A DNA stretch of 64,000 nucleotides, from NCBI GenBank assembly GCA_951813085.1, contig OX638348.1, forward strand, positions 434,001-498,000. Direction: 5' to 3'. Source of the DNA: an uncultured Opitutaceae bacterium. Lineage in GTDB: Bacteria > Verrucomicrobiota > Verrucomicrobiia > Opitutales > Opitutaceae. Under the pieces are notes generated by a model. It was not told the origin of the DNA, made no database searches, and saw nothing but the letters and a program-made list of their open reading frames with translations. Within the stretch, counting starts at the first letter, position 1. Each line of letters opens with the position of its first letter. The position numbers and the translations under genes are program-made. This document shows, one piece after another, positions 2,193 through 21,236 of this stretch.

Positions 2193-2822
2193 TTACTTGA
2201 GGTACTCTTTCAGCTCACCTTGCAGGAATTGCTTCGCGTAGTGGAGGCGCGACCGGACCGTCCCGATCGACGTCCCAATGATCTCGGCGATTTCCTTGTG
2301 GCTCAGTCCATCGATCTCGAAAAGGGTAATGACGGTACGGTGCTTTACGGACAGCTTTTGGAAGGCGTCATTGAGCGTCTCCTGGAGCTCTGTCATCAGG
2401 GCTGCCTTGTCCGAATCCGAGTCCGTCGTCATATTCTCGATGAAGCCCGACGAATGGTCTTCCTCCACCATCTTCTCAAAGCTGAAGAAGCGTCTCAGCT
2501 TATTCTTACGCAAATGGGTGAGCGACGTATTGAGAGCGATTCGGTATAGCCAGGTAAAGAAACTGGATTTTCCTTTGAATCGCTTGATGGATTGAAAGGC
2601 TTTGATGAATGTCTCTTGAGCGAGGTCGGAGGCGTCTTCGCGATTCGAGGTGAGATTGTAAATCACCGAGTATACGCGTTCCCTATACTTGAGAATGAGA
2701 GCGTCGAATGCATCGACATCGCCAGCCTGGACCTTCTGCACGATGGCAAGGTCCTCGTCCGCCTCGAGCCGCCTTTCTGGCGACGAGACTAGCGATTTTG
2801 TAATGGCCTTAGCAATGCTCAT
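2193..2822 (-). CDS. RNA polymerase ECF sigma factor (sigma-70 family, RpoE-like)
   Basis: A 209-residue sigma factor with only regions 2 and 4, the ECF layout. Region 2 spans about residues 38-105, with the core-binding helix DASDLAQETFIKAF at 63-76 and FFTWLYRIALN at 88-98. Region 4 spans about 150-205, with a helix-turn-helix in LSHKEIAEIIGTSIGTVRSR (173-192). The length and region-4 wording match RpoE/SigW-type factors. It is the first gene of the minus-strand operon, so it probably drives its own operon. The bases between 2823 and 2918 hold no gene; I could not identify an unambiguous ECF promoter there. Confidence 0.95.
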   Translation of the reverse strand: MSIAKAITKSLVSSPERRLEADEDLAIVQKVQAGDVDAFDALILKYRERVYSVIYNLTSNREDASDLAQETFIKAFQSIKRFKGKSSFFTWLYRIALNTSLTHLRKNKLRRFFSFEKMVEEDHSSGFIENMTTDSDSDKAALMTELQETLNDAFQKLSVKHRTVITLFEIDGLSHKEIAEIIGTSIGTVRSRLHYAKQFLQGELKEYLK

Positions 2823-14794: not shown

Positions 14795-15112
14795 TCAGCT
14801 TTCTTTTTCCTTCACGGCGGCTGGGACGATCATGAGTTTGCCGTCCTCTTTCTTGACGACTCCAGTCACCAGCAGGTTCTCGGTCTTGCCTTGGCAAAAA
14901 TACTTTCCGTGAGACATGTTCTCCGTGAAGAGATAGGTCATCACTTTCCCGTCCTTGCCTTTCACCTGCAGCGCGTTCGTGCATGACTTCGTTTCGCCTA
15001 GCGAGCATTTAGCGCATAGGCCGGTACCTTCCAAGGTGACCGCTTTATCTTCTTTTGCGAATAGGGGTAGAGCGAATGCGATGCTCGCCGCTATGATCAG
15101 TAACTTTTTCAT
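14795..15112 (-). CDS. DUF6370-like periplasmic protein with paired cysteines
   Basis: A 105-residue exported protein from the ATG at 15112, which has AAGGAG seven bases upstream; a TTG two codons earlier lacks that spacing. Signal peptide at residues 1-19 (cleavage near LFAKE). The mature part has GLCAKCSLGETKSC, a CxxC followed by a third Cys, and a further Cys in KYFCQGK. The arrangement suggests metal or disulfide chemistry and resembles small Verrucomicrobiota/Planctomycetes DUF6370 proteins. Function unknown. Single gene. Confidence 0.7.
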   Translation of the reverse strand: MKKLLIIAASIAFALPLFAKEDKAVTLEGTGLCAKCSLGETKSCTNALQVKGKDGKVMTYLFTENMSHGKYFCQGKTENLLVTGVVKKEDGKLMIVPAAVKEKES

Positions 15113-16450: not shown

Positions 16451-16727
16451 TGCCATGCAGGGGAAATGGATTAAAATTGCTCACGCGCGCAAAATTTTCC
16501 ATTAGAGCTGCTAATCCCAATCTTGGTAGGATGATTCTACTGCGTCCGGGCGCTGAGGGTTCTTCATAAGGGCGTCTAATTGCGAATTTCGCTGCTAAGT
16601 TCCAAGTGAATAAGGAGCGTTTTTCTTTCGTCTTAGGTCCCTAAAAGCGCTTATATTATTCCCGTGTCGTTTTCGCGCCCCCTATCGTGAGACTATGCAT
16701 TAATTGGCTGAAAGGAGTGTGGATAAC

Positions 16728-19196
16728 ATGAAATCTCAATCTCGAAACCCCTTTAAGCGGACGCGATCCGTTTCGGTATTCATGTTGTCCTTTGGCTTGA
16801 TCGCGAGCGGCAGTCCGCTCTTGTCAAATGCGCAAACGAGGAGCCGATCGGAGTCCACGTCCTCGAATTCATCGGCAAGCTCCGCTTCTAGCTCAAGATC
16901 TGCATCGCTTCCAACGGCACGACAGCGCCCGACTCAGACGAGCGCCCCTCGAGCCCCTTCGCGAAGCGTCTCCAGTAGCCGTTCATCATCAACGTCATCA
17001 AATTCTCGATACACTTCTCCAAGTCGGCGACCCACCGTAAGCCGCTCGGCGCCTGCGCCGTCAATTCCTCGCGTATCGACTCGCAGTTCGTCAAGCAATC
17101 GATCTAGCGCCTCGTCCAACAGCCGGTACTCCTCGTCCAACAGCCGGTACTCCTCGTCGAGCAGCCGTTCCTCGGCAAGCCGCTCTTCAGTCGTTCCTTC
17201 GAGCCCGCGCGGTTCGACCTCGCGTCACCCGACCGTTTCACGAGCTCCGCAGCGTAGCCAATCCACGCCGAGCGCAATCGCGCCCCGACGCTCTCCCCAA
17301 CAGTCGAGCTCTGCGCCGACCCGTTCTATTTCTACCCCTTCCTCCTCGCGAAACAATTCTACCGCTTCTCGACCGAGCGTATCGCGAACCCAGCAATCCC
17401 GTTCTTCCAATAGCTCGAGCCGGATTCAAAGTCCATCGCGCTCGCCCTCCATTTCATCCAGATCGAGCCGTAGCTCCTCGCCAAGCGTGTCGCGCTCGCC
17501 TTCGACACCCAGCGTCTCTACTCGGTCCAGTCAGCCACGCGTATCCTCTACGATTGCCCGAAGCCCATCTCGCTCTAGCAGCAGCCGATCATCGATTTCC
17601 GCATCCCCGCCTCGATCAACCGGAATTACCCTAGGACCCGGTCGTAGCTCGAGCCGATCCAGCAGCAATAATGTGGCGAGTCGCTCGTCGCGGAATTCAA
17701 CGCCGACGATTTCCAGTAGCTCATCCGCCTCCAGGAACGAACCGGTGGCCTATTCGAGGAGCCGATCGAATGATGGTTCAGTTTCGCTTTCCTCGTCTCG
17801 CGCTCGCATGGGCCCGCACCGGAGTGATGACCTTAGCGCGGCAGCTACTGTATATAGCCAAGATAGGCAATCGTCGCGGTCAACGTACAGCGGCGCCCGC
17901 AGGGCGGTCTCGTCGAGGACCCAGGCTTCGCGAGGCCGCCAGCGGGACGCCGCCGTAGAACGATTGGCCGGCTCTGAAGGCGTATCGCGCCGTCCAACCA
18001 GTCCGGTCTCTAGGGCCCACTCCAAAGGAGGGCCTGGCAATAAGGTGGCGCGGATCGCTCATTTCGACTTGAATCATAAGCATGTGCATGGCCCGAGCTG
18101 CGGTCATCACTACTACAACAATCGCTGGCATGATTATGCTCGCAATCATCGTCACGGCGCGGGTTGCGGTCACTACTTTCAAGGGGGCCTTTGGGTTTCC
18201 TTCCAAATAGGCCATCGGCATGGTGCAGGGTGTGGTCATTTTTTCGAGCACGGGCGCTGGCTATCGCATTCGGGAATTCACCGCTATGGAAGCGGTTGTG
18301 GTCATCATTTCTATGATGGCTTGTGGCGAAACTACCCGAGAACGCATGTGCATTTCAGCGGCTGTGGCCACTATCGCCATGGGGATGCCTGGTTCGACTT
18401 TCCTCTGAACCATCGCCACTCGTCCACCTGCGGTCACTTGTACGATGGGTTAGGATGGTATACGCACGGCGCTTCAGGGCATATCCATGGAACCGGTTGT
18501 GGTCACCACTACTACAACAGTCGTTGGAATTTGTACCCAAGACGATACTACACAAGAAATCGCAGGGATTGCTTCTATTTCTTTGTGGACCTGGGAGACT
18601 ATCGAACACGAAATTTGCCTACGAGCGTTTATACGAGAACCGTTTATGCCGATGAGGAGCCGGTTGATGTATTCGAGGCCGACGATCCTCTTAGCCGCGC
18701 CTATGCAGCCTTTGGCGAAGGTCGATTCTACGAATCGGTAATCGCTTTCAATGAGGCGATCGAGCTCGATCGGGAGAATGGCATTCTTTACTTAGCCCGG
18801 GCGCAGTCTCAGATAGCGATTCAAGACTACCGGGCCGCCTACGAGGACCTGATCGAGGGAATGGAGCGTATCCCGGAATGGACAGAGGTCGAATTCAGTA
18901 TCGCTGAGCTTTATGGGAATCCCGATTGGTACCAAGAACACTTCGAGTCCTTGAATAATTGGGTTGCTGATTACCCACGCGATTACAAAGCTCATTTCGT
19001 ATTGGGCTACATCCACTATTTTCAAGGGGATTACGCCGCCGCTAAGAGCGAGTTTATATACGCTCTCGCTTGGGATGAAGAGCATGAGCAAGCAAATAGG
19101 CTAATGTCTTCAATCCTTGAATACGAAGCTGAATCGGAAGTGCTCGCTGCTGAGAAGGACGCCCCCGATTCGGTGTCTGGAGATGAAGAACTTTAG
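16728..19196 (+). CDS. Large secreted Ser/Arg-rich protein with His/Cys repeats and TPR domain
   Basis: An 822-residue protein from the ATG at 16728, which has AAAGGAG 10 bases upstream; an earlier TTG (16704) has no ribosome site. A signal peptide with an Arg-rich n-region ends near SNAQ (residue 36). Residues about 37-420 are very rich in Ser, Arg, Pro and Thr, an SR-domain-like disordered segment. Residues 450-608 hold seven copies of a 22-residue unit with consensus HxHGxGCGH...W. Residues about 655-800 look like three or four TPR repeats. I know no characterised protein with this architecture. The His/Cys units could bind metal and the SR part could bind polyanions; both are inferences. 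Confidence 0.85.
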   Translation: MKSQSRNPFKRTRSVSVFMLSFGLIASGSPLLSNAQTRSRSESTSSNSSASSASSSRSASLPTARQRPTQTSAPRAPSRSVSSSRSSSTSSNSRYTSPSRRPTVSRSAPAPSIPRVSTRSSSSNRSSASSNSRYSSSNSRYSSSSSRSSASRSSVVPSSPRGSTSRHPTVSRAPQRSQSTPSAIAPRRSPQQSSSAPTRSISTPSSSRNNSTASRPSVSRTQQSRSSNSSSRIQSPSRSPSISSRSSRSSSPSVSRSPSTPSVSTRSSQPRVSSTIARSPSRSSSSRSSISASPPRSTGITLGPGRSSSRSSSNNVASRSSRNSTPTISSSSSASRNEPVAYSRSRSNDGSVSLSSSRARMGPHRSDDLSAAATVYSQDRQSSRSTYSGARRAVSSRTQASRGRQRDAAVERLAGSEGVSRRPTSPVSRAHSKGGPGNKVARIAHFDLNHKHVHGPSCGHHYYNNRWHDYARNHRHGAGCGHYFQGGLWVSFQIGHRHGAGCGHFFEHGRWLSHSGIHRYGSGCGHHFYDGLWRNYPRTHVHFSGCGHYRHGDAWFDFPLNHRHSSTCGHLYDGLGWYTHGASGHIHGTGCGHHYYNSRWNLYPRRYYTRNRRDCFYFFVDLGDYRTRNLPTSVYTRTVYADEEPVDVFEADDPLSRAYAAFGEGRFYESVIAFNEAIELDRENGILYLARAQSQIAIQDYRAAYEDLIEGMERIPEWTEVEFSIAELYGNPDWYQEHFESLNNWVADYPRDYKAHFVLGYIHYFQGDYAAAKSEFIYALAWDEEHEQANRLMSSILEYEAESEVLAAEKDAPDSVSGDEEL
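17111..17173 (+). repeat. Tandem 21-bp repeat inside the SR-rich region
   Basis: Three head-to-tail 21-bp units: 17111-17131 and 17132-17152 are identical, 17153-17173 is diverged. Each encodes seven residues (SSNSRYS type). The unit length keeps the frame, pointing to slippage or recombination as the source of the low-complexity region. Confidence 0.85.
18075..18551 (+). repeat. Seven protein-level repeats of about 22 residues (HxHGxGCGH...W)
   Basis: Seven successive units each begin with an HxH (or HxY/HxF) pair, then CGH, five or six variable residues, and a Trp. The cores are HVHGPSCGH, HRHGAGCGH, HRHGAGCGH, HRYGSGCGH, HVHFSGCGH, HRHSSTCGH and HIHGTGCGH. At DNA level the units have diverged, so this is an old, selected repeat. 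Cys and the third His are invariant in all seven, which suggests ligand or disulfide roles. Confidence 0.9.
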
Positions 19197-19326: not shown

Positions 19327-19734
19327 CTAAGCGTCGCCGCCTCGTTGGCCTCCGCCGCGCTGACCGCCTCCACCACGTTGGCCACCACGACCGCCGCGCC
19401 CTTGTGGCATGGCTGCGAATTCTTCTTTGGAGAGCTCACCGTTCTCGTCTGCATCCGCTTTCTTGAAAGCAGCTCCAAGCTGTTCCTTGATTCTCGCGGC
19501 CATTTGCTCGGGATCGCCTTGCGGTTGCTGTCCGCCGCGCCGACTCATCATTTGGATGCGCGCCTTGACGAGCTCATCGAGCGTAACGCTTCCGCTTTTG
19601 TCGATATCGCTAAGAGCGAAAAAATCAGGGCGCTCGCGACCGCCACCCTGTCCGCGTTCGTTGTTCTGGGCGATTAGAGGGGACGTTCCTGCGATTAGGA
19701 GCGCCGATAGAAAGGTGATGCTACGTTTTTTCAT
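19327..19734 (-). CDS. Exported EF-hand protein with Gly/Arg-rich tail
   Basis: A 135-residue protein from the ATG at 19734 (MKKRSITFLSALLIAG), with a signal peptide ending near LIAQ (residue 23). Two EF-hand calcium-binding loops are visible: DIDKSGSVTLDE and DADENGELSKEE, each with Asp/Glu at the expected ligand positions. The last 20 or so residues are Gly, Arg and Gln repeats. Such small EF-hand proteins are frequent in Verrucomicrobiota and Planctomycetes and are presumed periplasmic calcium-binding proteins of unknown role. The upstream extension of the frame to 19800 is Arg-rich and not used. Confidence 0.85.
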   Translation of the reverse strand: MKKRSITFLSALLIAGTSPLIAQNNERGQGGGRERPDFFALSDIDKSGSVTLDELVKARIQMMSRRGGQQPQGDPEQMAARIKEQLGAAFKKADADENGELSKEEFAAMPQGRGGRGGQRGGGGQRGGGQRGGDA

Positions 19735-19847
19735 ATTCACTGTGGGTTGTCTTTGTGGAAAACGCAGTCGGCGTCTCCGTGTATGGGAGGACAACGCCAC
19801 CTAGGAGGAATCGGTTTCATGTTTTTGCGGATCGCGTGGAGCGAAAA

Positions 19848-21092
19848 CTAGTATCTGGCTCCAAACGGATTCTCGTACCAAATAACGCCGAGCCCGTTGG
19901 GTTTCCCGTCAATTTCATGATGCTCTTCGCAGGTGAGGATATCGAGGTCTCCGTCAGCGTCGATATCGAGGAGGACGATCCGATCGAATTTAATGCCCTC
20001 TGAGCCGCTGATGCCGCGCGCTTCCCATTCGGCGATTGGTTTTCCGGGCAATTGGCGCAACCAGAATACGCCTTGCTTGGGAGGGATCGCTCCCTCGCAG
20101 TTCGCGACGATGTCGGGAAATCCATCGAGATCGAAGTCAGCGATTGCGACCGCTTTCGCATGGCCAGTGTTGGGAGGGTATCGGATTTCCGTTCTTTGCC
20201 ACGAGCGGGCAGAAGTATCGGAACGTTTCCACACGAGGAGGCGATCGCTCTTCGCCGTCGCGACGAAATCTTCCAGCCCGTCTTGATCCAAGTCGTAGAA
20301 ATTCGAGAAAAGCAATTCTTCGTTCCAGCCGCCAATGAGGCGCTTCTGCCAGCCCATCGTTTCCGCTCCGGGATTTTCGAGCCAGTAAGCGCCGCGATTC
20401 CCGCCTCTCCTATCGGTGTAGACTATATCGGAATCGCCGTCATTGTCCATATCCTTGAGGATGATAGACATGATCCAGCCGGCGTCGGATAAGGGATTCC
20501 AATTCCAAGGGTCTTTCCGGGAGCTGGGGTCCGCAGGAATTTCCCAGTAGCCGATTGTCCCATTGGGATTCTTGCTGCCGGCGATGATCGCCTTAATCGT
20601 TTTTTCTTGGAATTCGAGGGTGGCTGGATTGGCGAACATCCACCGCGTCCTTCCAACTGAGCCAGGGAGAGGAAACTGCGTCCACTGGTTTCCATCGAGA
20701 AGCGAGCCGCTTGATGGAGCGATGTGTACGTGAAGGGCCTGCTCACTGCCTTCGCAGCTCGAGACCACATCGAGTCGATCGTCTCCATTGAGATCGACGA
20801 AGGTAGCGTCCTCGGCGGAAGGAGTTTCGCCGATCGTGGCAGCGGGCCATTGCTGCTTGGCATTCTTCGGTCCTGGATGAAGGTAGATTCGGGTGATCCC
20901 TCCCTCTTCCCAGCCGACGGTGAGATCCATAAGTCCATCGCCATTGAGATCGCCTAGCTTTACGCCGTCCGCGCCGCGCGAGGAATCGTCGATCGTGTGG
21001 CGGAGCCAGCTTTCCGATGGGTCTATGGCGAATAGCGCTACTGGGGCGAACAAGAATGCGGTTGTAAAGATTGCGCGCCGGAAGAGGGTCAT
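19848..21092 (-). CDS. Exported FG-GAP/VCBS repeat beta-propeller protein
   Basis: A 414-residue protein from the ATG at 21092; a TTG three codons earlier is possible. Signal peptide at residues 1-23. The mature protein is built of FG-GAP/VCBS-like repeats with calcium-binding D-x-N-x-D-G-x-x-D loops, for example DLNGDGLMD, DLNGDDRLD, DMDNDGDSD, DLDQDGLED, DFDLDGFPD and DIDADGDLD, one per blade, so a propeller of six to seven blades is likely. Function unknown; such proteins are extracellular or periplasmic in this phylum. Single gene, divergent from the DinB gene. Confidence 0.85.
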   Translation of the reverse strand: MTLFRRAIFTTAFLFAPVALFAIDPSESWLRHTIDDSSRGADGVKLGDLNGDGLMDLTVGWEEGGITRIYLHPGPKNAKQQWPAATIGETPSAEDATFVDLNGDDRLDVVSSCEGSEQALHVHIAPSSGSLLDGNQWTQFPLPGSVGRTRWMFANPATLEFQEKTIKAIIAGSKNPNGTIGYWEIPADPSSRKDPWNWNPLSDAGWIMSIILKDMDNDGDSDIVYTDRRGGNRGAYWLENPGAETMGWQKRLIGGWNEELLFSNFYDLDQDGLEDFVATAKSDRLLVWKRSDTSARSWQRTEIRYPPNTGHAKAVAIADFDLDGFPDIVANCEGAIPPKQGVFWLRQLPGKPIAEWEARGISGSEGIKFDRIVLLDIDADGDLDILTCEEHHEIDGKPNGLGVIWYENPFGARY

Positions 21093-21236
21093 TTTGAGCA
21101 ATTGAGGTGAGTTTTCGTTCGTTGATGTAGAAAATCGAGGGTGATGTCGATGTTGCAGCTTCTGTTGACACCGAATAGAGATTGCGGCTCTATAGCCGTT
21201 TCTACCTTCGGAATTAAACCGCCAACAAAAAATATT

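Follow-up and report, generated by a model that had tools for sequence, protein, structure and literature searches.

A family of probably exported Cys/His-repeat proteins in Pelagicoccus-like Opitutales and its putative ECF sigma factor regulon

The window analysed here, a 64,000-nucleotide stretch from an uncultured marine Opitutaceae bacterium, carries a coding sequence for a protein of 822 residues, preceded by a candidate ECF-type promoter (Table 1). The open reading frame is a genuine gene: its orthologues are 49–73% identical to the encoded protein and dN/dS stays at or below 0.22 in the repeat units and the TPR core, wherever dS is measurable. The host genome (one contig, 4.85 Mb) holds a single copy. 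Read by eye, the N-terminus (K/R n-region, hydrophobic stretch, a site between SNA and Q) fits a signal peptide, and the orthologues likewise begin with hydrophobic segments. Behind it follow a basic low-complexity arm, a series of Cys/His units, a linker and an acidic helical tail. The strict motif H.[HY]...CGH.{6}W matches the protein exactly seven times (residues 452, 474, 496, 518, 540, 562 and 585), whereas shuffles of the 162-residue unit segment gave 0.0004 matches on average and never more than one. A first-pass annotation of this DNA had described seven repeats of 22 residues; the seven repeats are borne out, and the length holds for six of them, the sixth (penultimate) unit having 23.

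Table 1 Features of the 822-aa protein gene and its upstream region (window coordinates).
Feature	Position	Strand	Details
Palindrome TTAGAGCTGCTAA	16502..16514	.	By eye; similar in related genus genomes
Candidate ECF-type promoter	16607..16633	+	-35 TGAATA 16607-16612, 16-base spacer, -10 CGTCT 16629-16633; 121 bases 5' of ATG
Palindrome AAGCGCTT	16645..16652	.	Directly after -10; by eye, in several genus members
Coding sequence, 822 aa incl. stop codon	16728..19196	+	ORF from ATG 16728; orthologues
Probable signal peptide	16728..16832	+	Residues 1-35, cleavage between SNA and Q; read by eye
Basic Ser/Arg/Pro-rich low-complexity arm	16833..18056	+	Residues 36-443, net charge about +57
Unit 1 HVHGPSCGHHYYNNRWHDYARN	18081..18146	+	
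Unit 2 HRHGAGCGHYFQGGLWVSFQIG	18147..18212	+	
Unit 3 HRHGAGCGHFFEHGRWLSHSGI	18213..18278	+	
Unit 4 HRYGSGCGHHFYDGLWRNYPRT	18279..18344	+	Tyr replaces second His
Unit 5 HVHFSGCGHYRHGDAWFDFPLN	18345..18410	+	
Unit 6 HRHSSTCGHLYDGLGWYTHGASG	18411..18479	+	23 residues
Unit 7 HIHGTGCGHHYYNSRWNLYPRR	18480..18545	+	
Conserved linker, units to TPRs	18546..18686	+	YYTRxRxxxFYFFVDLGxYxxRN
Acidic TPR-type helical domain	18687..19157	+	Net charge about -28

Residues 38–380 of the arm consist of 41% Ser and 15% Arg and contain neither Cys nor Lys, a composition that suggests disorder. A short tandem DNA repeat (window 17110-17167; period 21, 2.8 copies) codes for part of this Ser-rich region. Over 13 orthologues, the arm spans 292–437 residues with 14–18% Arg and a net charge of +33 to +59; charge and length are kept, whereas sequence and Ser content vary (10–38% Ser overall, 10–23% among Pelagicoccus-clade orthologues). 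The earlier description of the arm as Ser/Arg-rich is therefore accurate for the protein in this window but does not extend to the family, in which Arg and charge are what persists. With the TPR part carrying a net charge of -14 to -34 across orthologues, the conserved property is the polarity between a positive arm and a negative tail rather than Ser-Arg repeats.

For the tail, profile scores are low (Pfam TPR_2 at 4.6e-5, below the family cut-off; the TPR-type NCBIfam profiles MamA and PrsT also below cut-off, none near it). Its AlphaFold model reaches a pLDDT above 90 over much of its length, and Foldseek paired this model with solved TPR structures, among them those of MamA and of consensus TPRs. 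By model and structure search alike, the tail thus consists of tandem 34-residue helical hairpins of the TPR type, in agreement with the first-pass annotation. It has helical hairpin repeats in common, by profile and fold, with known TPR proteins (Pfam TPR_2 and TPR_8; MamA and PrsT; consensus TPR structures), but here, besides the scores below Pfam cut-offs, the TPRs share one chain with a basic arm and with Cys/His units. The linker between units and TPRs is among the best-conserved stretches of the alignment and is retained even in orthologues that have lost nearly all units.

To characterize the units, we compared 69 of them from ten species. C7, H9 and W16 are present in all 69; H1 and H3 occur in 68 and 67 units, respectively. 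With the motif columns set aside, identity is 0.44–0.61 between units of equal position in different species and 0.09–0.38 between units of different positions; the units therefore became individual before the Pelagicoccus split and are not undergoing re-copying. In four related pairs, dN of the units amounted to 0.03, 0.08, 0.11 and 0.20, close to the 0.06, 0.05, 0.08 and 0.26 of the TPR core, and the arm evolved faster. These comparisons show units of ancient origin, each conserved in its own right and subject to purifying selection.

No known family was found to cover the unit. Pfam profiles gave no relevant match to 20 unit triplets up to an E-value of 1, PDB sequences gave none to the units, and NCBIfam and PHROGs held nothing relevant for them. 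Among plasmid records, the units were without a match and the tail gave TPR-level matches only, and our literature search found nothing on the 822-aa protein. The profile search that had been proposed for the repeat in the earlier reading thus returned no Pfam, NCBIfam or PDB family, and the architecture of this exported protein, which that reading had called unfamiliar, is indeed not covered by the family libraries searched.

Two AlphaFold predictions show, at low confidence, a regular β-hairpin for each unit (CGHxxx, turn, xWxx), with a pLDDT of 26–56, a range that a register-matched alignment left unchanged; a longer four-unit alignment (A5) slipped into the natural register and was left out of the modelling. 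The unit is probably a small β-hairpin stabilized by metal. We infer one metal ion per hairpin, with HxH and CxH as two pairs of alternating residues around a three-residue turn, and the near-invariant Cys and His fit the small metal site per unit that the first-pass annotation had suggested, as far as sequence can indicate. MORN and choline-binding repeats are aromatic-rich hairpins of about 20–23 residues with a Gly-turn. The units resemble both in length and in their predicted Gly-turn, aromatic-rich hairpin; these repeats, however, are without the invariant Cys and His of the units, and no profile of any such Pfam family matched. It is possible, albeit doubtful, that H-x-H-x3-C-G-H-x6-W represents a new stand-alone metal-binding β-hairpin repeat of envelope proteins in Verrucomicrobiota, holding one metal per 22 residues and placed under a dedicated ECF sigma factor, which would make the protein a metal- or redox-dependent envelope clamp.

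By its distribution, the 822-aa protein defines a family of Pelagicoccus-like Opitutales (Verrucomicrobiota). Of 57 relatives examined, seven genomes from its own genus have strong matches, as do two further genera. Named carriers are Pelagicoccus spp., Verrucomicrobiae bacterium DG1235 and Opitutaceae/Opitutales MAGs. The TPR core was strongly matched in three genera only (373 genomes of the order), and in 384 genomes of the class the exact DNA pattern for HxHxxxCGHx6W gave tandem matches in this family alone, all remaining matches being single and at the level of a reversed control. A two-unit profile run against 388 genomes of the phylum retrieved the family itself and one other protein, a lipoprotein of G362 (L033:1327-1626). 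Like the 822-aa protein, it is exported and comes from the same phylum, and it carries two tandem H-x-H-x3-C-G-H-x6-W units; it differs in its size (about 100 aa), its lipoprotein-type signal, the lack of arm and TPRs, and its taxonomic family. We regard it as an independent use of the unit.

Arm, linker and TPRs are retained in three orthologues (L024, L025 and L027) that have lost nearly all units together with their Cys. On the tree, this loss takes two changes by parsimony, and a single change is possible. Where present, the units are thus strongly constrained, but they are dispensable for the retention of the rest of the protein. This bears directly on the proposal, made in the first-pass annotation, of a metal store. 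In such a reading, the protein would be a periplasmic store or scavenger whose seven units each bind at least one Zn, Cu or Ni ion, with arm and TPRs only anchoring it. This function would account for the presence in each unit of four potential ligands that hardly vary over the 69 units, and for the His/Cys-rich composition that a putatively co-regulated glycine-zipper protein (see below) shows in several species. Since units can be lost while arm and TPRs stay, we consider it less likely as the main function; moreover, we recognised none of the neighbouring genes as encoding a metal transporter, chaperone or metal-responsive regulator, and the promoter suggests control by an RpoE-like factor. 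Overall, a metal store is unlikely as the core function.

The disulfides between units that the same annotation had offered as an alternative fit poorly, given that most chains have an odd number (seven) of unit Cys, and an intrachain disulfide ladder as the main reading was rejected on account of this odd number together with the invariant His. One Cys per unit and an odd total per chain would instead suit interchain links, as in a cross-linked surface or matrix protein whose unit Cys form intermolecular disulfides and whose arm binds acidic exopolysaccharide, giving a protective layer under stress. The export-type N-terminus would agree with such a layer, as would the conserved opposite charges of arm (+33 to +59) and TPRs (-14 to -34). 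Disulfides, however, have no need of the invariant H1, H3 and H9 that accompany each Cys, which makes a disulfide-linked layer less likely, and we recognised no signal for sorting or for anchoring at the surface. We rate this explanation as improbable, on a par with the metal store.

Building upon the orthologue set, we inspected the upstream regions, which by eye have little in common between distant orthologues except for TGAATA-N15/16-CGTCT. In the 64-kb window, the TGAATA/CGTCT element has a single match (0.06 expected). TGAATA-N15/16-CGTC lies within 250 bases upstream of 26 of 28 genes, as against 0.009 expected in shuffles for all 28 together: 13/13 genes of the 822-aa family, 8/8 genes of a small exported glycine-zipper protein (all genomes in which that protein was found) and 5/7 ECF sigma genes. 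Most orthologues belong to one genus, so these sites are not independent counts, and those of the Pelagicoccus clade weigh most. The whole host genome contains 11 matches to the pattern, compared with 6 for a reversed control; because the pattern is that rare, the element is not the main promoter of the organism, and a housekeeping-promoter reading was rejected on these counts. ECF sigma promoters are usually bipartite, with a -10 CGTC, a spacer of 16 ± 1 and autoregulation, and their -35 usually carries an 'AAC' signature (PMC3426412), which TGAATA lacks. The two palindromes that flank the element (Table 1) may be operators of a second regulator.

The element also precedes an ECF sigma gene in DG1235, its orthologue in the host (L107; G000:C1:172448-173020, minus strand, outside the window), where it lies 111 bases ahead of the matched start, and orthologous copies in other relatives. 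This sigma gene scores best with TIGR02939 RpoE (142 bits, below the equivalog cut-off) and is RpoE/SigW-like. No anti-sigma gene adjoins it; the next gene encodes a protein of the exported type, about 150 aa long and without a family match, which also follows the sigma gene in G002, G010, G029 and DG1235 and is a possible sensor or target. A weak resemblance to anti-sigma factors was found in the gene that follows the glycine-zipper gene. Further candidate targets preceded by the element include, in the host, a glycine-zipper lipoprotein and a weakly BamD-like lipoprotein and, in relatives, a lipoprotein that is BamE-like by eye (L147) and additional glycine-zipper and sigma gene copies. In G006 and G007, it stands before related exported helical proteins with the look of cytochrome b562 (L137 and L141). 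Some intergenic matches lie before other kinds of genes, and part of this list is due to chance. With its putatively autoregulated ECF-type promoter, its -10 CGTC and several predicted targets that are exported proteins or lipoproteins, the predicted system resembles RpoE/SigW ECF regulons, from which it differs in the unusual -35 TGAATA, the lack of an adjoining anti-sigma gene and the lineage-specific targets.

In G006 (same genus, 97% completeness), only about 67 codons of the 822-aa gene remain, interrupted by two stops and preceded by a promoter element that is still intact. The sigma gene of this genome contains three stops, and no glycine-zipper gene was detected; the cytochrome b562-like target may persist there despite the decayed sigma gene. 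All other genomes with the 822-aa gene also have the sigma gene. In G007 (fragmented) and G018, the sigma gene is present, the 822-aa gene was not detected, and the glycine-zipper gene lies behind the element in both. The joint decay in G006 and the pattern in G007 and G018 fit a regulon in which the 822-aa protein would be one target among several. Comparing Cys losses by eye, we saw no link between those in the units and those in the glycine-zipper protein.

We also considered that the element might be a transcription-factor site or the promoter of a different sigma factor, with no tie to the RpoE-like one. DNA data alone cannot name the protein that reads an element, the -35 half is without the usual AAC, and among 12 paralogous ECF genes one, of a different group, carries the element too when a looser spacer is allowed. 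However, two conserved halves set 15–16 bases apart by a variable spacer, with CGTC at -10, correspond to the usual ECF layout; the sigma gene itself lies behind the element, and in G006 it was lost along with its targets. Another reader of the element therefore seems quite unlikely. The window itself holds a second ECF sigma gene (2202-2759, minus strand), 33% identical to the sigma factor of the putative regulon and without TGAATA/CGTC, of which relatives have orthologous copies.

The gene neighbourhood is shared within the genus only and is different in Pelagicoccus. On the minus strand at 14798-15106, a small exported protein with a CxxC and further Cys, weakly DUF6370-like (E 6e-5, just below cut-off), is encoded by a gene kept beside the locus in several genus members. 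Downstream (19327-21101, minus strand) lie genes for an EF-hand exported protein and an FG-GAP repeat protein, which are kept in the genus and absent beside the Pelagicoccus copies.

Taken together, we favour the reading, at a probability of roughly 0.45, that the 822-aa protein is exported and serves as an envelope scaffold within a stress regulon run by an autoregulated, RpoE-like ECF sigma factor, and that its units are small metal-held hairpins. Perturbation of the envelope would cause an anti-sigma factor to free the sigma factor, RNA polymerase would start at TGAATA/CGTCT, and the protein would be exported to the periplasm or the cell surface. There, the disordered arm could hold polyanions of the envelope or matrix (a test of this segment for polyanion binding had already been suggested in the first-pass annotation), and the acidic TPR domain could dock partner proteins or the basic arms of adjacent molecules. 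The Cys/His units, lying between arm and tail, would be β-hairpins, each probably with one metal ion (HxH on one strand, CxH on the next), serving as a rigid spacer or a metal-dependent clamp. The steps that sequence comparison supports are the shared promoter element, the joint loss, the export-type targets, the ancient and constrained units and the charge polarity. The ECF-type promoter and its regulon, which did not figure in the first-pass annotation, are the best current clue to function.

As kinds of system, ECF regulons and TPR scaffolds are already known; the Cys/His unit and the overall combination are absent from the libraries searched. A repeat found in neither Pfam nor PDB would, if each unit binds metal, amount to a metal-hairpin module that repeats and is very small, and a ready-made comparison is at hand in relatives that have the units and others that have lost them. 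In Verrucomicrobiota, whose envelope biology is little explored, a lineage-specific protein thereby gains a testable regulatory context, consisting of a predicted ECF sigma factor, a promoter and further targets.
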